Positions 6,905-53,651 of a stretch of DNA of 64,000 bases are shown one piece after another. The notes under the pieces are model-generated. The model saw nothing but the letters and a program-made list of their open reading frames with translations. It searched no databases and was not told the DNA's origin. Each line of letters starts with the position of its first letter. The stretch's first letter is position 1. Position numbers and translations under genes: made by a program. This DNA is from Amycolatopsis palatopharyngis (GTDB lineage Bacteria > Actinomycetota > Actinomycetes > Mycobacteriales > Pseudonocardiaceae), in assembly GCF_003385185.1 (NCBI RefSeq), contig NZ_PQHZ01000004.1:124001-188000 (forward strand), given 5' to 3'.

Positions 6905-7219
6905 GTGAGCGACCCCGACAGGCGCGTGACCCCGGTGCTGATCACCGAGGCGGAACCTTCCTACGAGGAGCAGCACGCCGCCCGCAAACGCAAGTACATG
7001 TTGATGATGGCGCTGCGCTTTCCCTGTCTGGTGCTGGCCGGGGTGTTCTACGAGACCTGGTGGCTGGCCATGGGCTTCATCGTCCTGTCCATCCCGCTGC
7101 CATGGATCGCGGTGCTGATCGCCAACGACCGTCCGCCGCGCAAGAAGGAGGACGTCAACCGCTACCAGCGGGAGGCAAGGGCCATAGAGCGAACCGAGCA
7201 CCGCGTCATCGACGGTTGA
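6905..7219 (+). CDS. DUF3099 small membrane protein
   Basis: A 104-residue protein of the actinobacterial DUF3099 family: a soluble N-terminus with VLITEAEPSYEEQ, two closely spaced transmembrane helices (about residues 35-80), then a basic C-terminus RPPRKKEDVNRY. The function is not known. The start is GTG at 6905 with AGGAGGTG seven bases upstream. A DUF3099 gene also neighbours sigB in mycobacteria. It is convergent with the kinase gene, and the gap between them is filled by the large palindrome at 7247-7380. Confidence 0.85.
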   Translation: MSDPDRRVTPVLITEAEPSYEEQHAARKRKYMLMMALRFPCLVLAGVFYETWWLAMGFIVLSIPLPWIAVLIANDRPPRKKEDVNRYQREARAIERTEHRVIDG

Positions 7220-7246
7220 ACCTCCCGTCCGTACCGTCCCCGGCTT

Positions 7247-7380
7247 GGAGCGTCTGCAAGTACGCCCAAGCAAGGTCAACATCACCACCAACCGCTACCA
7301 AGCGGGCCGCCGACACTCGAGGCGCTTGGTTGCGGTTAATGGCGCTCATGATCTTGCTTGGTGGTACTTGCAGACGCTCC
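7247..7380. repeat. intergenic two-armed palindrome, copy A
   Basis: A 134-bp imperfect palindrome between convergent genes. The outer arms start GGAGCGTCTGCAAGTAC on the left and end with its reverse complement on the right; both continue into CAAGCAAG(G/A)TC. Deeper in, ACCGCTACCAAGCG on the left faces CGCTTGGTTGCGGT on the right, so each arm is about 55 bp, around a ~20-bp variable centre. The same arms occur at 17052-17193 and as a single arm at 32970-33021. A transcript from either side would fold into one long hairpin, so it could terminate both flanking genes. Confidence 0.85.
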
Positions 7381-7393
7381 AAACCCCGCGGGG

Positions 7394-8290
7394 TTAGGTG
7401 AGGCGCTCTCCTGGGGCCGGTTGCGGGCCTACTCGGCGGACCGCGGCGGCGCCCGCGCGCACACCCGCCCGGAGCATGTCCGCGGCCGGTTCCCGCCGTA
7501 GCCAGGCCGCCAGCAGTCCCGCATCGAACGCGTCGCCCGCGCCCGTGCTGTCGACGCAGTCGCCCTGCGGAGCGGGGACCGTGGTGATCCCGCAACCGTC
7601 GACCCAGCTCGCGCCGTTCGCGCCTGCGGTGACGGCCACCGCGCCGACCACGTCGAGCAGTTCCCGTGCCGAGGCGGGCTCCGGCTTGCCCGTGAGCGCG
7701 GCCAGCTCGTCGGCGTTGGGCAGCAACAGGTCCACGCCTCGGACGTCGTCGAGGAAGCCTGCCGGATCGGTCAGGTGTGCCGCCGCCTGTGGATCCACCG
7801 ACGTGCTCAGCCCGGCGTCGTGGGCAGCCGCGAGGGCGGCCAGCCCCGCAGGCCGCGACGCGGGATCGAGCAGGACGTAACCCGACAGGTGCAGGTGCCG
7901 CGCGGCTTTCAGGGCGGATACGCAAACCGGTGTGTGGAGGTCGGCAGGATCGAAGCGTGCGTTGGCGCCCCGGTCGGCCAGCATGCTCCGCTGACCGTCG
8001 GGGTCGACCAGGACCACGACGCAGCAAGTGGCCGCCTCGGGATCCACGGTGAACGCACAGTCCACCCCGGCGGACTCCAACTCACTGCGGATCAGCCGCC
8101 CGCCTGCGTCGTCGCCCACCCGAGCCACCAGCGTCGTCGGCACGCCACAGGAACGTAGCCACAGCGCCGTGTTCGCGCCCGCGCCGCCGCCGGTCAGCCG
8201 GACCGGCGCCCGGGTGTCGCCGCCGTGTACGACCTCGCTCGCGGGCCGGGCGACCACGTCGAGCCCGGCATCGCCCACCACGACGATCAC
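7394..8290 (-). CDS. psuK: PfkB family carbohydrate kinase, probably pseudouridine kinase
   Basis: A 298-residue ribokinase-fold kinase. The sugar-binding Gly-rich GGGAGANTA lies near residue 40 and the ATP/anion-hole signature DSTGAGDAFDAGLLA near residue 245, with the catalytic Asp in GAGDAF. The GTG at 8290 is preferred because it overlaps the end of the psuG-like remnant (GTGA) and the protein then begins VIVVVGDAGLDVV, a normal PfkB N-terminus. The adjacent remnant of pseudouridine-5'-phosphate glycosidase suggests that the kinase phosphorylates pseudouridine. With the glycosidase broken its present role is uncertain. Other nucleoside or sugar substrates are possible. Confidence 0.8.
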   Translation of the reverse strand: MIVVVGDAGLDVVARPASEVVHGGDTRAPVRLTGGGAGANTALWLRSCGVPTTLVARVGDDAGGRLIRSELESAGVDCAFTVDPEAATCCVVVLVDPDGQRSMLADRGANARFDPADLHTPVCVSALKAARHLHLSGYVLLDPASRPAGLAALAAAHDAGLSTSVDPQAAAHLTDPAGFLDDVRGVDLLLPNADELAALTGKPEPASARELLDVVGAVAVTAGANGASWVDGCGITTVPAPQGDCVDSTGAGDAFDAGLLAAWLRREPAADMLRAGVRAGAAAVRRVGPQPAPGERLT

Positions 8291-8457
8291 AGTGCGCAGA
8301 GCTCCACGGCCGCCTCCGCGGCGACCCCGGGGTTGCGGGCAGCGGGGAGGCCGTGCGAGAGCGGGATGCTCTTCGGCGCGACGACGGGGCGGTGTTCGTG
8401 CAGGGCGTCGGCGACCTCTGTGGAGATCGACAGCCCGCTCAGGAGAGTGCGGTTCAC
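8287..8457 (-). pseudogene. psuG: psuG remnant (pseudouridine-5'-phosphate glycosidase), 56 codons
   Basis: A 56-codon frame starts GTG at 8457 and ends in the TGA that overlaps the kinase start. It begins NRTLLSGLSISTEVADALHE, then RPVVAPKS and SHGLPAARN, which match the conserved start of PsuG (VQDAL...PVVALEST..SHGMP..N in the E. coli protein, from memory). Intact PsuG is about 300 residues, so over 80% is missing. The last residues, VAAEAAVELCAL, could be either the continuation of the N-terminal helix or the normal PsuG C-terminus joined by an in-frame deletion. The ALEST motif has changed to APKS. Confidence 0.7.
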
Positions 8458-8581
8458 GAGGCGTCATCCTCACGGATTCGGCTCATCCGGCCGCCACCGG
8501 GGCGCCACCTGTCTCCCCCTGGCGGGGCCACCTCGGGCGGCAGCCGTGACCGGCGACGGCGGTGTGCGGCATCATGGACTC

Positions 8582-8830
8582 GTGAGCACTCAGACCTTGC
8601 CTGACGTCGACACCCGCCCTGAGGGCACCGACAGCACCGATGACGACGCGCCGAAGATGTTCCACTACGTGCGCAAGAACAAGATCGCGGAGAGCGCGGT
8701 CATGGGCACGCACGTGGTGGCACTCTGCGGCGAGGTCTTCCCGGTGACCAAGTCGGCGAAGCCCGGCTCGCCGGTCTGCCCGGACTGCAAGAAGATCTAC
8801 GAAGGTCTGCGTTCGGGCGGCGACGAGTAG
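8582..8830 (+). CDS. DUF3039 small zinc-ribbon-like protein
   Basis: An 82-residue protein of the actinobacterial DUF3039 family. It has an acidic N-terminus, then MFHYVRKNKIAESAVMG and a putative metal site ALCGEV...CPDCKKIY. The function is unknown; the Cys pattern suggests structural zinc. The start is GTG at 8582. Its last 34 bases overlap the 3' end of the convergent YihY gene. A homologue of the same length lies at the same place beside the YihY gene in mycobacteria (Rv2708c, recalled). Confidence 0.85.
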   Translation: MSTQTLPDVDTRPEGTDSTDDDAPKMFHYVRKNKIAESAVMGTHVVALCGEVFPVTKSAKPGSPVCPDCKKIYEGLRSGGDE

Positions 8831-10035
8831 GAGCCGCTATCGGTGGCCGGGGATGCTGATCCTGCGCGATCCTCCCCGGCCTGCTCGTCGTGCTCGGCCA
8901 GGTCCCGGGCCTCCTCCGGCGCGGGTGATGAATCCGCCTCCTGCGCGTCTGCCGTTCCCTGCTCGGCCGCCTTGCGTGGCCTGCGCAGTGGCATCGTGGT
9001 GCGTTCCCAGAGTTTGCGGTGTTCCTCCGAACGCATCCGCTCGTTGGCCCGCTCCATCTCCAGCCTGCGCCACTTGCGCCGCTGCCTGCGGGTCATTTTC
9101 GCCGGCCACAATTCCTGAATGGCGCTGTTGAAGTAGGCGCCGCCGACAATCGCCAGGCCGATGAAGAACGTGAACAGCAGGAAGGCGATCGGTGTGGCGA
9201 GCGCGCCGTAGGTGTAGCCGGTGGTGGTGATCCAGCTGATGTAGAACCGCAGACCGACACTGGAGAGCAGGAAGATCGCCATGGCGAGGATCGCGCCGGG
9301 CAGCCCGCGATGCCACGGCAGCTTGCGTGGCAGGGCCAGCTTGTACAGGGTAGCCAGCGCCAGCACGAGCAGCACTCCGAGCGTCGGGTAGTAGAGCACG
9401 CCGATCCAGAACGCGATCGTCGGCCCCCAGTCCGGCGGGAAGAACTCCGAGAGCAGTTCGGGGCCGAGCGCGATCACCGGGAGCCCGATCACGACGAGCA
9501 CCAGCCCGGCCATGTAGAGCAACAGGGCGAAGATTCGCTGCCAGACCTCGTTGCGGACGCCGTACTGGCCGTGCGCCACGGTGATCGCGTCGACGAATGA
9601 GGACATCGCCGAAGAGCCTGCCCACAGCGAGATCAGGAAACCGACCGAGACGATCTCGCCCTTGCCGATGGTCAGGATGTCGTCGACGGTCGGCTCGATG
9701 ATCTGGTTGACCACGCTACCGCTGAAGATCTTCTCGGTGAACGCGATGATCTGGTCGTGCACGGCGGTGACGACCTTCGGGCCGAACCAGTCGCCGATGA
9801 AGCCCAGGCTGCCGAGCAGGCCGAGCAGCAGCGGCGGCAGGGACAGTGTCTGCCAGAAGGCGGCCTCGGCCGCCTCGGAGAAGATGTTGCCCTCCCACGC
9901 CTTGCTGAGGGTGCGCCGGAGCAGGCGCAGGGGCCCCTTGCGGACGCCCTGACGCTGGGTAGCCCGCTCCTGCTCGCTGTCGCCGTTGCTCGGGTCGACG
10001 CCCCCGGATGCTGCGCTCATCGCAGTGCCAAGCAT
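8797..10035 (-). CDS. YihY/BrkB family inner-membrane protein
   Basis: A 412-residue protein with an N-terminal cytoplasmic tail, about six transmembrane helices, including GLVLVVIGLPVIALG and AILAMAIFLLSSVGLRFY, and a charged Lys/Arg/Glu-rich C-terminal tail of ~100 residues ending in SPPERRPS. YihY proteins were once annotated as RNase BN, which is wrong for this family; the true function is unknown. Two starts compete: ATG 10035 with GGATGG nearby (chosen) or ATG 10020. The gene runs 34 nt into the convergent DUF3039 gene. Confidence 0.85.
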   Translation of the reverse strand: MLGTAMSAASGGVDPSNGDSEQERATQRQGVRKGPLRLLRRTLSKAWEGNIFSEAAEAAFWQTLSLPPLLLGLLGSLGFIGDWFGPKVVTAVHDQIIAFTEKIFSGSVVNQIIEPTVDDILTIGKGEIVSVGFLISLWAGSSAMSSFVDAITVAHGQYGVRNEVWQRIFALLLYMAGLVLVVIGLPVIALGPELLSEFFPPDWGPTIAFWIGVLYYPTLGVLLVLALATLYKLALPRKLPWHRGLPGAILAMAIFLLSSVGLRFYISWITTTGYTYGALATPIAFLLFTFFIGLAIVGGAYFNSAIQELWPAKMTRRQRRKWRRLEMERANERMRSEEHRKLWERTTMPLRRPRKAAEQGTADAQEADSSPAPEEARDLAEHDEQAGEDRAGSASPATDSGSYSSPPERRPS

Positions 10036-10264
10036 GGTCCATCCGCGCCGGGTTGGCTCGTCGCCCCCACCGGCGTGTTCTTTCTCGCGCGTGCCGTGGA
10101 CGGCCACGGCGGGGGAGGGCGGGTAGGCTGATCGTCGCGCCCTCACCGTGGGTTCGGCACCGAGGCCGGTCGACGTGGGGGCATTCGCATGCGGCCGAGG
10201 TCGCACCAAATGACCGCGTGAGACTGACACGACACGGACGCCCGCGAGAGGAGTTGGACCCTCC

Positions 10265-12052
10265 TTGTCGGACACGGCCCAGCAGAATCCGGCGCAGGCT
10301 GACGAGCAGGCACAGGCCATGCGCGGGTTCATCGCACCCGAACCCGAACACGACGCCACCGCCCGCCCGCTGCGGGCCTGGCAGCGGCGTGCGCTGACGA
10401 AGTACCTGACCACGAAGCCGAAGGACTTCCTCGCCGTCGCCACCCCCGGTGCGGGCAAGACCGTGTTCGGTCTGCGCGTGGCGGCCGAGCTGTTGTCGGA
10501 CCGCACGATCGAGTCGATCACGATCGTGACGCCGACCGAGCACCTCAAGCACCAGTGGGCGATCGCCGCCGCGGGCGCCGGGATCGCGATCGATTCCAAC
10601 TTCCGCAACACCACGGCGGTGACGTCCTCGGACTTCCAGGGCGTCGCGCTCACCTATGCGCAGGTCGCCGCGCACCCCACGCTGCACAGGGTGCGCACGG
10701 AGAACCGCAAGACGCTGGTCATCCTCGACGAGATCCACCACGGCGGTGACGCCAAGTCCTGGGGCGACGCGATCCGCGAGGCATTCACCCCGGCCGTGCG
10801 CAGACTCGCACTGACCGGGACCCCGTTCCGCAGTGACGACTCGCCGATCCCGTTCGTCAATTACGAGCCCGACGGCGACGGCAGTCTGCGCAGCAGAGCC
10901 GATCACGCGTACAACTACGCCGACGCCCTCGCCGACGGGGTGGTGCGGCCGGTGGTGTTCCTGGCGTACTCCGGTGAGGCCTCCTGGCGAACCAGCGCGG
11001 GCGACGAGTTCACCGCACGGCTGGGTGAACCCCTGACAGCGGAGCAGAACGCGCGCGCCTGGCGGACCGCGCTGGATCCCGGTGGCGAGTGGATCCCGTC
11101 GGTGTTGCATGCCGCGGACACGAGGCTGAACCAGTTGCGTGCGGGCGGTATCCCGGACGCGGGCGGCCTGGTGATCGCTTCGGACCAGGAGTCCGCGCGC
11201 GCATACGCCAAACTGCTGGCCCGCATCTCCGGGGAGAACCCGGTGCTCGTGCTGTCCGACGACCCGAAGGCCACCAAACGTATCGGTGAGTTCTCCGACT
11301 CGTCCGACCGCTGGCTGGTGGCCGTGCGGATGGTTTCCGAAGGTGTCGACGTGCCTCGGCTTGCGGTCGGTGTCTACGCGACCAGTGCGTCGACCCCGCT
11401 GTTCTTCGCGCAGGCGATCGGCCGGTTCGTGCGCTCGCGCAGGGCCGGTGAGACGGCGAGTGTGTTCGTGCCGAGCGTGCCGGTGCTGCTGGAGCTGGCG
11501 AGCGAGCTGGAAGCCGAGCGGGACCACGTGCTCGGCAAGCCGCACCGGGAGAAGGACGGCTGGGACGACGAGATGCTCGCAGCCGCCAACCGGACCGAGG
11601 ACGAACCCGGCGAGGAGGAGAAGGCGTTCACCTCGCTGGGCGCCTCCGCGGAGCTCGACCAGGTGATCTACGACGGCAACTCGTTCGGTACCGCCGTGTT
11701 CTCCGGTACCGACGAGGAGCAGGAGTATCTGGGCCTGCCCGGGTTGCTGGAACCGGACCAGGTACGTGCCCTGCTGCGTAAGCGGCAGGAGGAGCAGCTC
11801 TCCGATTCGAAGCGGCGCAAGCCTGCGGAGGAGCCCGCCGCGCAGGCGCAGCCGAAGCCGAAGAGCGTGCGAGAGCGCATCGCCGGGCTGCGCAAGGAAC
11901 TCAACGCCCTGGTCGGCATGTACCACCACCGCACCAACAAGCCGCACGGCGCCATCCACAGCGAGCTGCGCAAGGTCTGCGGCGGCCCGCCCACCGCGAT
12001 GGCGACGATCGAGCAGCTCGAGGAGCGCATCACCACCCTCCGCTCCTGGTAG
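10265..12052 (+). CDS. DEAD/DEAH-box superfamily 2 helicase
   Basis: A 595-residue SF2 helicase. Walker A is PGAGKT at about 60-66, motif II DEIHH at about 155, motif III LTGTPFR, motif V SEGVDVPRLAVGVYAT and motif VI QAIGRFVR. The GVDVPR/IGRFVR block resembles XPB/RadD-type and type I restriction helicase motors. The C-terminus (after ~500) is Lys/Glu-rich, then a small helical domain. The start is taken as TTG 10265 (AGGAG 13 nt upstream); ATG 10319 is an alternative. It stands alone, divergent from YihY. A role in DNA repair or RNA remodelling is inference only. Confidence 0.85.
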   Translation: MSDTAQQNPAQADEQAQAMRGFIAPEPEHDATARPLRAWQRRALTKYLTTKPKDFLAVATPGAGKTVFGLRVAAELLSDRTIESITIVTPTEHLKHQWAIAAAGAGIAIDSNFRNTTAVTSSDFQGVALTYAQVAAHPTLHRVRTENRKTLVILDEIHHGGDAKSWGDAIREAFTPAVRRLALTGTPFRSDDSPIPFVNYEPDGDGSLRSRADHAYNYADALADGVVRPVVFLAYSGEASWRTSAGDEFTARLGEPLTAEQNARAWRTALDPGGEWIPSVLHAADTRLNQLRAGGIPDAGGLVIASDQESARAYAKLLARISGENPVLVLSDDPKATKRIGEFSDSSDRWLVAVRMVSEGVDVPRLAVGVYATSASTPLFFAQAIGRFVRSRRAGETASVFVPSVPVLLELASELEAERDHVLGKPHREKDGWDDEMLAAANRTEDEPGEEEKAFTSLGASAELDQVIYDGNSFGTAVFSGTDEEQEYLGLPGLLEPDQVRALLRKRQEEQLSDSKRRKPAEEPAAQAQPKPKSVRERIAGLRKELNALVGMYHHRTNKPHGAIHSELRKVCGGPPTAMATIEQLEERITTLRSW

Positions 12053-12061
12053 CCCCACTCC

Positions 12062-12117
12062 CGACTTGGCAGTTTCGGGGCTCGAGTTGGCAGTTCTGGT
12101 GGCCGACTTGGCAGTTT
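12062..12117. repeat. three direct repeats of a TTGGCAGT-type 14-mer, period 21 bp
   Basis: CGACTTGGCAGTTT (12062), CGAGTTGGCAGTTC (12083) and CGACTTGGCAGTTT (12104) lie exactly 21 bp apart, two turns of the helix. They start 10 bp past the helicase stop and about 205 bp before the xylF-like gene. The even phasing would suit a protein array on one DNA face, but a non-coding genome repeat is equally possible. Confidence 0.7.
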
Positions 12118-12321
12118 AGGGCCGATCGATGAGCGGGGGTTCGTCTCCTTCGGTGGCCCGTCCCGTTGCCAAACCGTGTCCGAGCAGCGCCACTTAATCG
12201 ATCCAGTACATCTTCCGCTGCTCTCGTCCCGGGCATATGTTGCCGTCCACAACATTTAGTGCGACGGAGCGCAGGACCGATTCGGCCGTCGCGCCCAGCT
12301 GATCTTGGAAAGGTTCGACGG

Positions 12322-13446
12322 ATGCGCATCAGACCATTTGCCGTTGTCGCGGCGACCATGGTGTCGGCACTCGCCCTCGCCGCATGTGGGGCCAACTCCG
12401 AGGGGCCGGCGGAACCCGCTGGCGAGACATCCGCGGATGGCGGAGGGGCGGCGGGCAAGGTGGGCGTGATCCTGCCCGAGACAGCGACCTCGGCGCGCTG
12501 GGAGGGCTTCGACAAACCCATGCTGGAGAAGGCTCTGCGTGCGGAAGGCTTCGAGCCCGACGTCCAGAACGCCCAGGGCGACGTCCAGAAGTTCTCCACC
12601 CTGGCCGACGGCATGATCAGCCAGGGCGTCAAGGTCCTGATCATCGCCGCGATCAACAGCGAGATCGGCAGCGCGGTCGCGACCAAGGCGAAGAACGCTG
12701 GTATCCCGACCATCGACTACGACCGGCTCAACCTCGGCGGCAGCTCCGACTACTACGTCTCGTTCGACAACGTGAAGGTCGGCGAACTGCAGGGACAGGG
12801 GCTGGCCGACGCGCTCAAGGGCAAGAAGGGCGCGGAGGTCATCGAGATCGAGGGCGCCCCCACTGACAACAACGCGACCCTGTTCCACGAGGGACAGCGC
12901 AACGTGCTGCAGCCGCTGTACGACTCCGGGGACCTCGAACTCGTGCAGAGCCAGCCCATCGATGGATGGGAGAACCAAAAGGGCGGCGTGATGTTCGAAC
13001 AGATCCTTACGAGCAACGGCGGCAAGGTCGACGGTGTCGTCGCGGCCAACGACGGCCTGGCCGGCGCGGTCATCACCGTGCTGAAGAAGAACGGTCTAAA
13101 CGGGACAGTGCCGGTGACCGGTCAGGACGCGACAGCCGACGGGCTGAAGGCGATCCTGCGTGGTGACCAGTACATGACGGTGTTCAAGCCGATCCAGCAG
13201 GAGGCCGACGCGGTGGCGGCGCTGGCGGCGGCCCTCGCCGAGGGCGACACGGCGGCGGCCGATGCGATCGCCTCCGATGTCAGCAAGGACCCGGAGGGGA
13301 ACCGGGACGTCAAGTCCGTCCTGCTCGAGCCGGAACTGATCACCAAGAACGAGGTCAAGAAGGTCGTCGACGAGGGGTATGTGCCCGCTGCCGACATCTG
13401 CGGCGGCGACCTGCAGCAGGTCTGTGCCGAACTCGGAATCTCCTGA
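12322..13446 (+). CDS. xylF: D-xylose-type ABC transporter substrate-binding lipoprotein
   Basis: Extracellular sugar-binding lipoprotein of 374 residues. The signal peptide ends at the lipobox LALAAC with Cys22 as the lipidated residue, followed by a low-complexity linker. The periplasmic-binding-protein type 1 fold shows XylF-specific signatures: IDYDRLN, YYVSFDNVKVGELQ, VAANDGLAGAV, GQDATADGLKAI and MTVFKPIQQEA. ATG 12322 follows GGAAAGG. It is the first gene of the importer; a stem-loop and the ATPase gene follow. D-xylose is the best guess, but related pentoses or other sugars cannot be excluded. Confidence 0.9.
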   Translation: MRIRPFAVVAATMVSALALAACGANSEGPAEPAGETSADGGGAAGKVGVILPETATSARWEGFDKPMLEKALRAEGFEPDVQNAQGDVQKFSTLADGMISQGVKVLIIAAINSEIGSAVATKAKNAGIPTIDYDRLNLGGSSDYYVSFDNVKVGELQGQGLADALKGKKGAEVIEIEGAPTDNNATLFHEGQRNVLQPLYDSGDLELVQSQPIDGWENQKGGVMFEQILTSNGGKVDGVVAANDGLAGAVITVLKKNGLNGTVPVTGQDATADGLKAILRGDQYMTVFKPIQQEADAVAALAAALAEGDTAAADAIASDVSKDPEGNRDVKSVLLEPELITKNEVKKVVDEGYVPAADICGGDLQQVCAELGIS

Positions 13447-13467
13447 CCCCGTACCCATCCCGGACAG

Positions 13468-13510
13468 CCGGGGCGGGGGTGCCTCCCCCGACGAGGTGCC
13501 CCCGTCCCGG
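13468..13510 (+). promoter_or_regulatory. intercistronic stem-loop after xylF-like gene
   Basis: CCGGGGCGGGGGTGCC (13468-13483) pairs with GGTGCCCCCGTCCCGG (13495-13510) with two mismatches. An alternative inner hairpin GGGGG-TGCCT-CCCCC also forms. Such GC-rich loops between a binding-protein gene and its transporter genes commonly stabilise or attenuate the message, so that more binding protein than ATPase is made. Confidence 0.55.
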
Positions 13511-13531
13511 TACCCACGCGAAAGAGTTCCG

Positions 13532-14305
13532 ATGAGCGAGCCCATTCTCGAACTGCACCAGATGAACAAGAGCTTCGGCCCCGTGCACGTCCTGCACGAC
13601 GTGGACTTCGCGGTGCGCGCGGGTGAAGTGACGGCCCTGGTAGGCGACAACGGTGCCGGAAAGTCCACATTGGTCAAATGCATCGCCGGAATCCACACCG
13701 CCGACTCGGGAACGGTGACCTTCCAGGGTGAGGCCGCGCATATCCGTGGACCGAGGGACGCGGCGGCACTGGGAATCGAGGTCGTCTACCAGGATCTGGC
13801 ATTGGCCGACAACCTAGACATCGTGCAGAACATGTTCCTCGGGCGGGAACGCGGCAGTCAGTGGCTGCTCGACGAGGCGAGTATGGAACAGGCCGCGCGC
13901 GAGACGCTGGCCTCGTTGTCGGTCCGCACGGTCAAGTCGGTGCGTACTCCGGTGTCCTCATTGTCCGGTGGGCAACGGCAGACCGTGGCGATCGCGAAGT
14001 CGGTGCTGTGGGAGAGCAAGGTCGTCCTGCTGGACGAGCCGACCGCCGCACTCGGAGTCGCCCAGACCAGACAGGTCCTCGACCTCGTCCGCAGACTGGC
14101 CGAACAGGGCCTCGGTGTCGTGTTGATCAGCCACAACATGGCCGACGTGTTCGAGGTCGCCGACCGGGTCGCCGTGCTGTACCTGGGCCGGATGGTGGCC
14201 GACGTGCAGATCAAGGACGTCACCCACGGCCAGGTCGTCGAACTGATCACCGCGGGCCGCTCCGGCGACCTCGGCCTCGCCCGCCCCGAATCCGCCGTTC
14301 TGTGA
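13532..14305 (+). CDS. xylG: sugar ABC transporter ATPase, single-domain XylG type
   Basis: A 257-residue ABC ATPase: Walker A GDNGAGKST at 38-46, Q-loop VVYQDLALADNLDIVQN, signature LSGGQRQ at about 145, Walker B VVLLDEPTA, and H-loop LISHNM. Canonical E. coli XylG and RbsA carry two fused ATPase domains (~500 residues); this protein has one, as in FrcA-type and many actinobacterial transporters, and must work as a dimer. ATG 13532 lies 85 bp after xylF, and the stop overlaps the permease GTG. Confidence 0.9.
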   Translation: MSEPILELHQMNKSFGPVHVLHDVDFAVRAGEVTALVGDNGAGKSTLVKCIAGIHTADSGTVTFQGEAAHIRGPRDAAALGIEVVYQDLALADNLDIVQNMFLGRERGSQWLLDEASMEQAARETLASLSVRTVKSVRTPVSSLSGGQRQTVAIAKSVLWESKVVLLDEPTAALGVAQTRQVLDLVRRLAEQGLGVVLISHNMADVFEVADRVAVLYLGRMVADVQIKDVTHGQVVELITAGRSGDLGLARPESAVL

Positions 14306-15768
14306 ACGAGCGAGTCACGAAAGAACCGGTCATGACTGAGACCCCCACGTCCTCACCGCCCGCATCCCCGCCGCCGAACGCCGCCATCAGTGACTTCGGC
14401 ATCGACACCACCACCATGTCCTCCAGGGAAGCCGTGCGGGACTACGTTTCCCGCCTGGGTTCCGGGCAGCTCGGCTCGCTTCCGGCGCTGCTCGGGCTGA
14501 TCGCCCTCGTGATCATGTTCGCGGCCATGTCCGACGTGTTCATGTCGCTGAACAATGTCGCCAACCTGCTCGCACAGGGGGCCGGTCGCACGATCATCGC
14601 GATGGGCATCGTCTTCGTCCTGCTGGTCGGCGAGATCGACCTCTCGGCGGGCACGGCCTCCGGGGTCTGCGCCGCACTGATGGCGATGCACCTCGTCGAA
14701 CAGGGCAACCTGCTCGGCGGCATGGGAAGCACCGTCTTCTACGCCTTCCTCGCGGTACTCGCACTCGCCGCGCTGCTGGCCGCGTTTCTGCGAATCTGGG
14801 TCGGGGCAGGGCTTTCGGTGCTCACCATCGTGGTCGCGCTGTCAGGACTCGGCGCGAATCCGTGGGTCGAGATCGGCCTGGCGATCTGCGCCGGCACCGC
14901 CATCGGCTGCATCACCGGGTTCCTCGTCTCCAAGATCGGGATGCCCTCCTTCGTCGTGACCCTCGCACTGTTCCTGGCCTGGCAGGGGGTGATCCTGCAG
15001 TTCATCGGCGAGGGCGGGGTGCTCGGAATCAGCTCTTCGCCGGTGTTGAACAAGGTCGCGAACGGCAACCTCTCCACGGCGGGCAGCTGGGCGCTGTTCC
15101 TGGTCGCCGCTGGCGGCTTCGCGGTGGTGACACTGGGCAGGCACTACTCCCGGCTGAATCGAGGTCTGGTGACTCAGCCGACACCGCTGGTGCTGACCAA
15201 GGTGGGTGTCATCGGGGCATTGGGCGCGATCGCCACCTACCTGATGACGATCAACCGCTCGCCCAACGACAACATCGTCATCTCCGGCGTTCCGTACGTC
15301 GTGCCGATCGTCCTCGCTCTGCTCGCCGTCGGCACCTACGTGCTGAATCGCACGCGTTACGGCAGGCACATCTACGCCGTCGGCGGCAACAGGGAGGCCG
15401 CGCGGCGTGCCGGGATCAACGTGACCAAGATCCGGGCCAGCGTCTTCGTCGTCTGCTCGTCGGTCGCGGCGGTCGGCGCGATCGTGTACTCCTCCAAGGT
15501 CGGCTCGGTCGACCCGCAGGCAGGCGGCCTGAACACCCTGCTGTTCGCCGTTGGCGCAGCCGTTATCGGCGGGACGTCGCTGTTCGGGGGCCGGGGCAGG
15601 GTGTTCGACGCGGTCATCGGCGGCACGGTGCTCGCGGTGGTGGAAAACGGCCTCGGCCTGCTCGGGCAACCTGCCGCGGTGGTGTCGATCGTGACCGGAT
15701 TGGTACTGCTGCTGGCTGCGACCGTGGACGCACTATCGCGCAAACGGGCCACCGGAGGGGTGCGATGA
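14302..15768 (+). CDS. xylH: sugar ABC transporter permease, XylH type
   Basis: A 488-residue BPD_transp_2 family permease with a ~60-residue cytoplasmic N-terminus rich in Pro/Ser, then around ten to twelve hydrophobic helices. Family signatures include GIVFVLLVGEIDLSAG, SFVVTLALFLAWQGV, GRHIYAVGGNREAARRAGI and AAVIGGTSLFGGRG. The GTG at 14302 overlaps the ATPase stop (GTGA), favouring it over ATG 14332. It completes the xylFGH-type importer. A TGATG-like overlap at its end opens only a 9-codon frame. A stem-loop at 15809-15833 follows. Confidence 0.88.
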   Translation: MNERVTKEPVMTETPTSSPPASPPPNAAISDFGIDTTTMSSREAVRDYVSRLGSGQLGSLPALLGLIALVIMFAAMSDVFMSLNNVANLLAQGAGRTIIAMGIVFVLLVGEIDLSAGTASGVCAALMAMHLVEQGNLLGGMGSTVFYAFLAVLALAALLAAFLRIWVGAGLSVLTIVVALSGLGANPWVEIGLAICAGTAIGCITGFLVSKIGMPSFVVTLALFLAWQGVILQFIGEGGVLGISSSPVLNKVANGNLSTAGSWALFLVAAGGFAVVTLGRHYSRLNRGLVTQPTPLVLTKVGVIGALGAIATYLMTINRSPNDNIVISGVPYVVPIVLALLAVGTYVLNRTRYGRHIYAVGGNREAARRAGINVTKIRASVFVVCSSVAAVGAIVYSSKVGSVDPQAGGLNTLLFAVGAAVIGGTSLFGGRGRVFDAVIGGTVLAVVENGLGLLGQPAAVVSIVTGLVLLLAATVDALSRKRATGGVR

Positions 15769-15808
15769 CCGGGCCTGCCGGCGTCCGGACGTGAGGCGTG
15801 AGGGCGGG

Positions 15809-15833
15809 TCCCGGCGGCTGGCCGTCGCCGGGA
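15809..15833 (+). terminator. candidate terminator after the xylose-type importer
   Basis: A perfect 8-bp inverted repeat, TCCCGGCG (15809-15816) and CGCCGGGA (15826-15833), with a 9-nt loop lies 40 bp after the permease stop and 20 bp before the regulator start. No U-tract is present, which is common in actinobacteria. Confidence 0.4.
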
Positions 15834-15852
15834 CAGGTGGGACACTGGCCGC

Positions 15853-17022
15853 GTGACCAGCACGCCCGTTGCCCGCCCCGACGACGTGCGCCGGCACAAC
15901 CGAACCACCTTGCTCCGGCTGTTGCACGTGGGCGGCCCGCACACGCGGGCGGCGCTCGCGACCGAACTCGGGCTCAATCGCAGCACGATCAAGACCCTGG
16001 TGGACGGGCTCGCCGAGAGCGGTGTGGTCCAGGAGCGGGTGCCGAGGCCGGGAAGGGGCGCGGGGCGGCCGTCGCTGCTCGTGCTGCCCCAGCCGCAGGC
16101 CGCGGTCGTGCTCGCGGTGGACGTCCAGGTGGAGCACGTCGCGATCGCGCTGGTCGGGCTGGGCGGGCAGATTCTCGGGCGCAACAGCTGGAACCTGCAC
16201 GGCCGGACCGGGGAACCGGGCGAGGTCATCACGCACGTCGTGGAGTCCGCCGCCGTACTGGCCGGTGATCTCGGTGTCCAGCCGGTCGCGGCCGGGGTGT
16301 CGGTGCCGGGCGTGGTCCGGCGCTCCGACGGACACGTGCACGAGGCGCCGAACCTGCGGTGGACCGAGGTGGCGCTGGGGGAGCGGCTGGCAGCGGTTCT
16401 GCGGATTCCGGTCCAGGTGGGCAACGACGCCGAGTTCGGTGCGGTCGCCGAACACCTGCGTGGGACGGCGCGGGGGGCGCAGGACGCCGTGTATGTCTCC
16501 GCCGACATCGGAGTGGGGGGCGGGGTCATCGCGCAGGGAGCGTCGCTGCGCGGGGCGGCGGGTTACGTCGGGGAGATCGGGCACATGGTGATCCGACCGG
16601 GCGGGCGGACCTGTTACTGCGGTAATCGGGGGTGCTGGGAGACCGAGGTGGGGGAGGCGGCCCTGTGCCGCGCGCTGGAGCTGGAGCCGGACAGCCCGAG
16701 GGGCATGGTGATCGTGGAGCTGCGGCGGCTGGCCGGTGTGCCCGGCGAGGCCCGTGCGCGACTCGCGGAGTTCGCCGAATGGCTCACACTCGGCCTGGTC
16801 AACGTCGTGAACCTGCTCGGTCCGCAGCTGGTGGTGCTGGGGGATCTGTTCACCGCGCTGCCACCGTCGGTGCTGGACCAGGTCGAGGCGGAGGTGCGCA
16901 GACGCAGTCTGGTCAGCAGAGCGGTCGGTGGCGTCCGGGTCGAGGCGTCGAAGCTCGGCGCCGACGTCAAACTGCTCGGCGCCGCCGAGGCGGCCTTCGA
17001 AGGCGTCCTGGACACCGTCTGA
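15853..17022 (+). CDS. ROK family transcriptional regulator (XylR/NagC type)
   Basis: A 389-residue repressor with an N-terminal winged HTH (VRRHNRTTLLRLLHVGGPHTR...LATELGLNRSTIKTLVDGL) and a C-terminal ROK sugar-kinase-like domain. The ROK zinc signature is GHMVIRP...CYCGNRGCWETE. The nucleotide/sugar cleft motif SADIGVGGGV is present, but this regulator class normally no longer phosphorylates sugar. Its place directly after the xylFGH-like genes suggests that it senses the transported sugar and represses the importer. The GTG start is at 15853. Confidence 0.9.
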   Translation: MTSTPVARPDDVRRHNRTTLLRLLHVGGPHTRAALATELGLNRSTIKTLVDGLAESGVVQERVPRPGRGAGRPSLLVLPQPQAAVVLAVDVQVEHVAIALVGLGGQILGRNSWNLHGRTGEPGEVITHVVESAAVLAGDLGVQPVAAGVSVPGVVRRSDGHVHEAPNLRWTEVALGERLAAVLRIPVQVGNDAEFGAVAEHLRGTARGAQDAVYVSADIGVGGGVIAQGASLRGAAGYVGEIGHMVIRPGGRTCYCGNRGCWETEVGEAALCRALELEPDSPRGMVIVELRRLAGVPGEARARLAEFAEWLTLGLVNVVNLLGPQLVVLGDLFTALPPSVLDQVEAEVRRRSLVSRAVGGVRVEASKLGADVKLLGAAEAAFEGVLDTV

Positions 17023-17051
17023 CCCCGCCCGTCACCCCCGGCTGGTGGTAG

Positions 17052-17193
17052 GTGTGCCTGCAAGTACGCCCAAGCAAGATCAAGAGCGCCGTTTTCCGCC
17101 GCCAAGTGCCCTGGCCCGCCCGTGCAGGGCGCCGCAGGTTGGTAGCGGTTGGTGACGCTGTGGATCTTGCTTGGGCGTACTTGCAGACGCTCC
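17052..17193. repeat. intergenic two-armed palindrome, copy B
   Basis: Same family as 7247-7380, again between convergent genes. A 24-bp core, CTGCAAGTACGCCCAAGC followed by AAGATC (17058-17081), is repeated perfectly inverted at 17163-17186. The right arm continues outward to GACGCTCC and inward to GGTTGGTAGCGGTTGG, matching copy A. The left arm is more diverged toward the centre (CGCCGTTTTCCGCCGCC). The total is about 140 bp. Confidence 0.87.
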
Positions 17194-17250
17194 ATTCCTG
17201 GGCGGGACGCAGCGCGGTGGTGCGCACGGCTATCCGGGGTGGATGTGCAA

Positions 17251-17280
17251 CGGGCGGGGACCCCGTGAGGTCCCCGCCCG
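17251..17280 (-). terminator. terminator of the small zinc-ribbon gene
   Basis: A perfect 12-bp stem, CGGGCGGGGACC (17251-17262) and GGTCCCCGCCCG (17269-17280), with a 6-nt loop, 18 bp past the stop of the minus-strand gene. Together with palindrome copy B it fills the gap to the convergent ROK gene. Confidence 0.7.
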
Positions 17281-17297
17281 TGTGCGTCTGTGCGGCG

Positions 17298-17480
17298 TCA
17301 GCCGCCCTGGATGTTGGCGTCCAGCTCCTTCAGCCGGGACTCGTGCTCACGACCGTGGTGGCCGCAGAACAGAAGCTCGCCACCAGTGCTCAGGATTGCG
17401 CGAAACTTCGCCGCCGCACCGCAACGGTCGCAACGGTCCGCAGCGGTCAGTTCGGGGCGGGTGAGCGTGGGTGAAGTCAT
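17298..17480 (-). CDS. small zinc-ribbon protein (DUF7455-like)
   Basis: A 60-residue protein, MTSPTLTRPELTAADRCDRC at the start, then GAAAKFRAIL, GGELLFCGHHGREHE and a short C-terminal helix. The CDRCG...CGHH pattern suggests a structural zinc. This tiny family is widespread near sigA/sigB in actinobacteria; its function is unknown. The ATG at 17480 has GGAGGGAGA upstream. It is monocistronic, with its own terminator. Confidence 0.85.
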   Translation of the reverse strand: MTSPTLTRPELTAADRCDRCGAAAKFRAILSTGGELLFCGHHGREHESRLKELDANIQGG

Positions 17481-17750
17481 GGGAGTCTCCCTCCGTCCCG
17501 GCACCGGCGGTGCCGATGCCATCGATCCAGCCGCGACCACTCTGGTGAAAACCCGGCGATCGGATGATCGCCAGCTCCGCGGTGCTCGCTGCCTCCACTC
17601 TTGCAGACGTTTCGGCGCCCGCAAGTGTTCCCGGCTGTGTGGGAGGTGTGTCACGCGTAATTACCCCAGATGTCGTAAGTCCGTCCCGACAGGTAGGACG
17701 GCCGGGGTCAAAACTCGGCATTTCCGCCGGTCAGGCACCATGTGGAGGTG

Positions 17751-32969: not shown

Positions 32970-33021
32970 GGTCGGTAGCGGTCAGCGGCGATCTCGATCT
33001 TGCTTGGTGGTACTTGCAGAC
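32970..33021. repeat. single arm of the large intergenic palindrome, copy C
   Basis: GGTCGGTAGCGGTCAGCGGC followed by GATCTTGCTTGGTGGTACTTGCAGAC matches the right arms of the copies at 7247-7380 and 17052-17193 base for base except for a few substitutions. The opposite arm is missing: the DUF3159 stop is only 21 bp to the left. Again the element sits between convergent genes. Confidence 0.8.
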
Positions 33022-33031
33022 ACCCCGTGCG

Positions 33032-53505: not shown

Positions 53506-53509
53506 GGTA

Positions 53510-53533
53510 TCGCACTTTCCCGGGAAAGCGCGC
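53510..53533. repeat. TTTCCCGGGAAA palindrome, copy 1 (imperfect)
   Basis: Half-site TCGCACTTTCCC is followed by GGGAAAGCGCGC; the right half differs from the exact reverse complement at two positions. Compare the perfect copy 63 bp downstream. Confidence 0.85.
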
Positions 53534-53572
53534 AGGGGCAAACCCGCGACCTGCGACGAGAGTTCAAGCGCG

Positions 53573-53596
53573 TCGCACTTTCCCGGGAAAGTGCGA
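53573..53596. repeat. TTTCCCGGGAAA palindrome, copy 2 (perfect)
   Basis: Half-site TCGCACTTTCCC is followed directly by its reverse complement GGGAAAGTGCGA, a perfect 24-bp palindrome, 56 bp before the response-regulator start. Confidence 0.9.
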
Positions 53597-53651
53597 TGGT
53601 GCGCGGCGCGGTTTCTCAGGTGCTCTCAGGAACGTATGGCACGGTGATGAC

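Follow-up and report, generated by a model that had tools for sequence, protein, structure and literature searches.

Facing 59-bp arms with helically phased spacing behind the genes of two Amycolatopsis species: candidate paired protein-binding sites

Two-armed elements between convergent genes

The window analyzed here, a 64,000-nucleotide stretch of the Amycolatopsis palatopharyngis genome (assembly GCF_003385185.1, contig NZ_PQHZ01000004.1, positions 124,001 to 188,000), contains two copies of an element in which two long arms face each other around a short variable center. At junction 1, the element separates a DUF3099 gene (6905-7219, plus strand) from the convergent gene of a PfkB-family kinase (7394-8290, minus strand); at junction 2, it lies between an ROK gene (15853-17022, plus strand) and the convergent gene of a small DUF7455 protein (17298-17654, minus strand). 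Both elements and their convergent neighbors had been pointed out in an original prediction made from the sequence of the window, and both were recovered by our analysis: inverted arms were located at 7242-7304/7323-7385 (63 nt, 83% complementary) and at 17051-17105/17139-17193 (55 nt, 76% complementary), gene calling gave convergent genes at both loci, and a search of the window for the core pattern of the arm, with up to 3 mismatches allowed, gave five matches, compared to none in 100 shuffles. A single arm was found between convergent genes with DUF3159 and TrkA domains, its outer end toward the stop of the minus-strand gene. The features are as follows.

7245..7303, plus strand: element 1, left arm, 59 bp (core 7254-7277; arm limits -9 to +49)
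7304..7323, no strand: element 1, variable center between the arms, diverged in Amycolatopsis marina
7324..7382, minus strand: element 1, right arm (core 7350-7373; from core position and arm limits)
17049..17107, plus strand: element 2, left arm (core 17058-17081; from core position and arm limits)
17108..17136, no strand: element 2, variable center between the arms, diverged in A. marina
17137..17195, minus strand: element 2, right arm (core 17163-17186; from core position and arm limits)
32970..33028, minus strand: single arm (core 32996-33019; from core position)

A repeat family with two known bearers

The two copies of the window belong to a repeat family that occupies about 60 loci in the genome of each of its two bearer species. 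With up to 3 mismatches allowed, the 24-mer core occurs 117 times in the A. palatopharyngis genome (once if the core is read backwards, as a control) and 127 times in A. marina. At up to 1 mismatch, these two were the only bearers among 80 genomes of the genus, and the remaining 78 had no match. Among 390 genomes of the family, three others had one match each at 3 mismatches, which we take as chance, and in a 397-genome sample of the order, a draw outside which A. marina fell, only A. palatopharyngis matched at 2 mismatches. Plasmids and phages, searched with the element by blastn, and viral contigs, searched for the exact core pattern, gave no match. We regard the element as a variant of interspersed extragenic repeats with an unusual geometry, and no description of it was found in a literature search whose coverage left out most subscription journals. 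One half-site stands at a contig end of UBA8490 (L150), a metagenome-assembled genome labeled Streptomyces, and pieces of that contig are 68 to 82% identical to A. marina flanks; judging from these letters, another member of the clade may be a third bearer, or the contig may be a binning error.

We collected 125 items, namely 81 two-armed copies (44 from A. palatopharyngis and 37 from A. marina) and 44 single arms (22 per genome). The set covers about 110 of the 117 half-sites of A. palatopharyngis and about 96 of the 127 of A. marina, without the single arm of the window, and the statistics below pool two genomes that share orthologous copies and are hence non-independent. For A. palatopharyngis, the assembly is a draft of 7.0 Mb, split into 131 contigs, and its estimated contamination is 6.49%. 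At least 12 of these contigs (C38, C43, C46, C49, C51, C54, C67, C70, C81, C110, C111, and C119) have an element about 200 bp or less from their end, and therefore, the assembly often breaks at the elements, by a hairpin or an inserted insertion sequence (IS).

Rigid arms set apart by whole helical turns

The arm is a rigid unit of about 59 bp, reaching from about -9 to +49 relative to the core. An outer module around CTGCAAGTACnnCCAAGCAAGATC is followed by a fixed gap of 12 bp and an inner module, T(AA or TT)C(YR)C..CCAA, in which YR is a pyrimidine-purine step. Of 162 arms, 148 have 12 bp between the core and the inner motif, and only arms with this gap entered the arm statistics. The centers look unrelated from copy to copy. 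Positions 36-37 are AA in 135, TT in 40, and something else in 7 of 182 arms; AT or TA was found in none of them, where the column counts predict about 30 of each. Furthermore, 179 of the 182 arms have a YR step at positions 39-40. Since AA and TT are the identical step of the double helix, the AA/TT rule points toward a readout of the arm as double-stranded DNA (dsDNA).

The strongest clue, invisible from two copies, is the distance between the arms, which is quantized at about 10.7 bp. Core-to-core distances cluster at about 83, 94, 105, 116, 126, 137, 147, and 157 bp, with one copy at 202 bp. The best period for the 81 pairs is 10.75 bp (R = 0.866), a fit reached by 0 of 5000 jittered sets. 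Indeed, 77 of the 81 copies are at most 2 bp off a 10.7-bp comb, compared to an expectation of about 37%, and the comb fits both genomes (42 of 44 copies in A. palatopharyngis and 35 of 37 in A. marina). Phasing at 10.7 bp is stronger for the outer distance (R = 0.865) than for the inner distance (R = 0.773). The spacing classes are not sequence subfamilies: identity at variable positions within versus between classes was 0.512/0.508 and 0.531/0.528. With arms equally alike within and between classes, the ladder is not simply the descent from a few founders. At 27 orthologous two-armed sites, the spacing differs by 2 bp or less in 20 and by more in 7 (+11, +11, -9, -12, +74, -4, and +5 bp), and five of these seven changes are near whole turns (binomial p = 0.048). 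The inter-site distance is thus quantized by the helix, as in a helically phased synaptic site.

Most elements lie behind genes

In the two genomes, 93 of the 107 elements that could be scored have the 3' end of a gene at most 60 bp away, and 14 are off this pattern (genes were called from codon usage; 18 of the 125 items were unresolved, and 107 had both neighbors called). The setting is convergent for 54, tandem for 50, and divergent for 3, compared to 12 convergent, 40 tandem, and 26 divergent among control gene gaps of at least 60 bp (the window plus 80 kb of A. marina). Location at convergent junctions, as originally predicted, therefore describes the elements of the window but is not a rule of the family, for which it has to be widened to 3' ends. 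In the tandem setting, the element is nearer to the upstream stop in 40 of 50 cases. Of the single arms, 18 have a 3' end only at their outer side, 4 only at their inner side, 11 at both sides, and 11 at neither. The place at gene ends suggests work on transcript ends, be it a stop for the polymerase or the relief of supercoils, or else mere tolerance. In a Pfam scan of 10 neighbors of six off-pattern loci, no candidate binder stood out; these neighbors were ArsR, GntR, MarR, and CGNR regulators, enzymes, and one protein without a family.

Pairing and the possibility of an RNA element

A palindrome behind genes could act as a bidirectional RNA element, the hairpin of the transcript terminating, protecting, or processing the 3' end. 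The location at 3' ends, the strong predicted hairpin, and the concordance of the inner 8-mer fit this idea, as do near-perfect palindromes at the same junction in several other Amycolatopsis. Over most of the arm, however, it is not pairing as such that is conserved. In 20 aligned copies of one spacing class, 79.0% of the cells were paired compared to 80.9% after shuffling, and all five pairing measures, covariation included, were under the shuffled mean. Arms of the same copy match at variable positions about as often (0.521, 65 copies) as arms of different copies do (0.513). This equality had already been noticed in the window and had been taken to point to selection for pairing or to gene conversion between the arms; either would raise the match within a copy, and therefore, the equality argues against both over most of the arm. 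Across the five bases that follow the core, the same-copy match even falls below expectation (0.361, expected 0.433, z = -3.3; 12 such groups were tested in all). Only the short inner motif is excepted, with a same-copy match above shuffled at positions 39-40 and 42-43 (z = 4.2 and 3.5). Furthermore, an AA arm faces a TT-type arm in 23 of the 81 copies, and these positions cannot pair there.

An ordinary intrinsic terminator or structured RNA, also among the options first considered, found no backing: no terminator-like site was found at the two elements of the window, a T-run follows only 5 of 160 downstream ends (shuffles, 0), and no Rfam family matched the window at gathering scores. A spacing quantized by the DNA helix likewise speaks against an RNA element, a reading that we regard as quite improbable.

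Conservation between species and the possibility of a miniature transposon

By at least one flank, 41 of the 66 A. palatopharyngis items pair with an item of the (incomplete) A. marina sample. In these orthologs, the 22 core positions are 98.6% identical (1171 of 1188), whereas the two bases that lie between core positions are 49% identical (53 of 108), close to random. Ortholog memory is about 0.2 to 0.5 at most variable positions and 0.84 to 0.90 at positions 36-37. Loci also turn over, as the A. marina junction (L189) that corresponds to the single arm at 32970-33028 has no arm and carries a CCAATGCCACATTGGGG-kind palindrome instead.

The elements might be miniature transposons, with arms as transposase-binding ends, a phasing that reflects end synapsis on DNA below the persistence length, and an ancestral spread in which insertion behind stops was favored. 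Long, near-invariant inverted ends, the lack of coding content, about 60 dispersed loci, a very narrow host range, and the missing arm at L189 are consistent with such an origin, and, according to the accessible text of PMC3464196, transposon ends and the internal eliminated sequences (IESs) of Paramecium are subject to a helical constraint on length. However, so many loci matched in A. marina, with cores nearly identical beside diverged bases, are unexpected of dead copies, and the spacing classes are not subfamilies. A clear target-site duplication was not found (the best of 360 settings gave 38% versus 33% matches, z = 4.2, 20 shuffles). Nor was a transposon bounded by arms found in the two wide inward-facing arm pairs of A. 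palatopharyngis that were looked into among the half-sites listed, one split by an IS110-family copy and one around a cassette of other genes; a third wide pair (L166, about 1 kb) was outside that look. We therefore consider a miniature transposon unlikely, if less so than an RNA element.

The IS110-family copy (PF01548 and PF02371; L154:1596-3067, contig C24) is inserted inside an arm, beside the GATC of the arm. At the starts of contigs C51 and C110 (L162 and L043), an IS30-like end, read by eye, also stands beside the arm GATC; two unlike ISs thus occupy the same spot of the arm, and A. marina keeps two-armed elements at all three loci. The cassette (L180:1537-4202), about 2.6 kb flanked by two arms, encodes a sigma factor of the extracytoplasmic function (ECF) type, a zf-HC2 protein, and a beta-helix protein, and its A. 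marina counterpart (L064) has one arm pair at a spacing of 115 bp. Some of the items counted as single are halves of split elements (by the IS at contig C24 [L091/L154], at the contig ends C51 and C110, by the 2.6 kb of other genes at L180, and at the contig end of C43), and true single arms are fewer than 44.

Relation to extragenic palindromes and supercoiling sites

Repetitive extragenic palindromes (REPs), their doublets (REPINs), and bacterial interspersed mosaic elements (BIMEs) are extragenic inverted pairs, mostly behind genes, between convergent or tandem open reading frames, as far as the available text of PMC3733652 and PMC3116915 goes, and REPs are targets of IS110 members according to the available part of PMC1525189. 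The suggestion that the element is a REP-like or miniature inverted-repeat transposable element (MITE)-like repeat holds in these two respects, the REP/BIME-like place behind genes (93 of 107 elements no farther than 60 bp from a 3' end) and the targeting by IS110. It fails in others. REP units are palindromes of 20 to 40 bp with a GTAG or CGTC tag, whereas the arm has 59 bp and, read by eye, is not itself a palindrome; GTAG- and CGTC-like letters are present in it but variable. The variable center and the helical ladder are further differences: the GI and GII doublets of REPINs in strain SBW25 have peaks at 71 and 110 bp, and no REPIN ladder is described in the accessible parts of PMC3733652 and PMC3116915. 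Besides, REPs differ from our element in that no pairing selection acts over most of its arm. The Y1 transposase (Y1_Tnp, PF01797), which marks REP-associated tyrosine transposases (RAYT), was found in 0 of 9 genomes, A. palatopharyngis and A. marina included, and in 5 of 14 control genomes; a RAYT-linked REP was dropped on this ground. MITEs share inverted ends, the lack of coding content, and dispersed copies with the element but not its seemingly unrelated centers, its conservation of arms locus by locus, or the absence of a clear target-site duplication.

By analogy with REPs and BIMEs, gyrase or a general nucleoid protein might wrap the element where transcription builds up positive supercoils. 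The place at gene ends and the insertion of IS110 are in line with this, helical phasing would fit wrapping, and the total length is near the size of a gyrase footprint. Gyrase and the common nucleoid proteins are, however, expected throughout the genus, 78 of whose 80 genomes are without the element, and sequence-specific arms of 59 bp are longer than what such proteins usually read. A supercoiling site of this kind has, in our view, only a slight chance of being correct.

Paired sites for a putative lineage-specific protein

We consider it probable, on the evidence of sequence, that the elements are paired dsDNA sites for a putative lineage-specific protein that joins the two arms across a short bend, with a presumed role at gene ends as a barrier or insulator. 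Each arm would be a long, rigid, bipartite recognition site, and a candidate protein, probably lineage-specific, would bind both facing arms, the bound complexes touching across the short bent or looped center. For the complexes to touch, both arms would have to be on one face of the helix, which would leave the center free in sequence but let its length change mostly by whole turns. Bound just behind the stop codons, the complex would most likely keep neighboring transcription units apart, as a barrier on the DNA or as a topological insulator. The sequences themselves show the family, its rigid arms, their phasing, the lack of pairing selection over most of the arm, the position at 3' ends, and the conservation at orthologous loci. 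Phasing, rigid arms, and the double-strand signature jointly suggest bound sites in contact; the protein, this contact, and the role at gene ends are what we infer. A transposase-derived protein is a natural candidate for the binder, although no gene for one was found. In its full version, the model describes a lineage-specific nucleoprotein system: at about 60 gene ends, a dedicated protein, possibly derived from a transposase, would hold two inverted 59-bp sites together on one helical face and thereby set the boundaries of transcription units. This version is tentative and more likely wrong than right.

Several observations speak against the model of paired protein-binding sites. No binding protein was found for the arms. 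The predicted hairpins are very stable (-90 and -93 kcal/mol, z = -11.4 and -9.4), and the in-register stem beats versions slid by 1 to 3 columns, both in paired cells (79% versus at most 44%) and in covariation score (0.098 versus at most 0.086), although this advantage is to be expected of every inverted repeat that arose from copies of itself. The two arms of a copy share an identical inner 8-mer in 36% and 35% of cases, compared to 16% and 18% after shuffling, and some inner pairing, or else a matching of half-sites, may be at work. Positions -1 and 10 are nearly without ortholog memory (0.03 and 0.04), as could result if copies exchange sequence and selection is not the sole cause; low memory inside the core may likewise stem from such exchange, or from fast change. 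Phase-keeping at fixed loci amounts to seven events, two of them off phase, in a comparison in which several ortholog assignments rest on one matching flank. Single arms make up 44 of the 125 collected items, some of them being halves left by an inserted IS, by intervening genes, or by the end of a contig. Finally, a perfect 13-bp GC hairpin (window 17250-17281), with a shorter loop in the A. marina version, precedes the 3' end of the DUF7455 gene and is, by its letters, another terminator candidate beside element 2; as a separate hairpin shared with A. marina, it indicates that ordinary terminators can coexist with the element.

The nearest precedent we met for a natural length ladder is that of the Paramecium IESs, short elements whose length period of about 10 bp is explained, in the accessible text of PMC3464196, by the joining of both ends on one face of a short loop of DNA. 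IESs are eukaryotic and excised from the somatic genome, whereas the Amycolatopsis element is bacterial and has long arms, and no excision of it was seen, with no test aimed at it. The looping sites of lac, ara, and Hin, whose activity is tied to the helical phase between two sites (same source, accessible text), were studied at single sites with engineered distances; the Amycolatopsis ladder is natural variation at about 60 gene ends. Palindromes at bacterial gene ends are usually taken as RNA hairpins, but here it is mostly the geometry of the double helix that is kept, within and between two species. If the model of joined arms is true, evolution has, in effect, varied the helical twist of an arm-joining system in a natural experiment, and about 60 sites stand ready with a built-in test of phase (5 versus 10 bp added) and with access to DNA-bound complexes at bacterial 3' ends. 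Integrating vectors are reported for an element-bearing species in the available part of PMC6549336.

Other palindromes at gene junctions

A second palindrome family, CTTTCCCGGGAAAG, is clustered at 53508-53597 of the window and is fused to single arms in A. marina (e.g., L102, L110, and L149); 11 of 12 such chimeras have no matched item in the A. palatopharyngis set. In several other Amycolatopsis (L195-L221), different near-perfect palindromes occupy the same gene junction, and a relative (G013, L222-L241), in a repeat search of 400 kb, has two-armed palindromes of its own that are not this element. Palindromes at gene junctions thus seem, from these sequences, to turn over between lineages.

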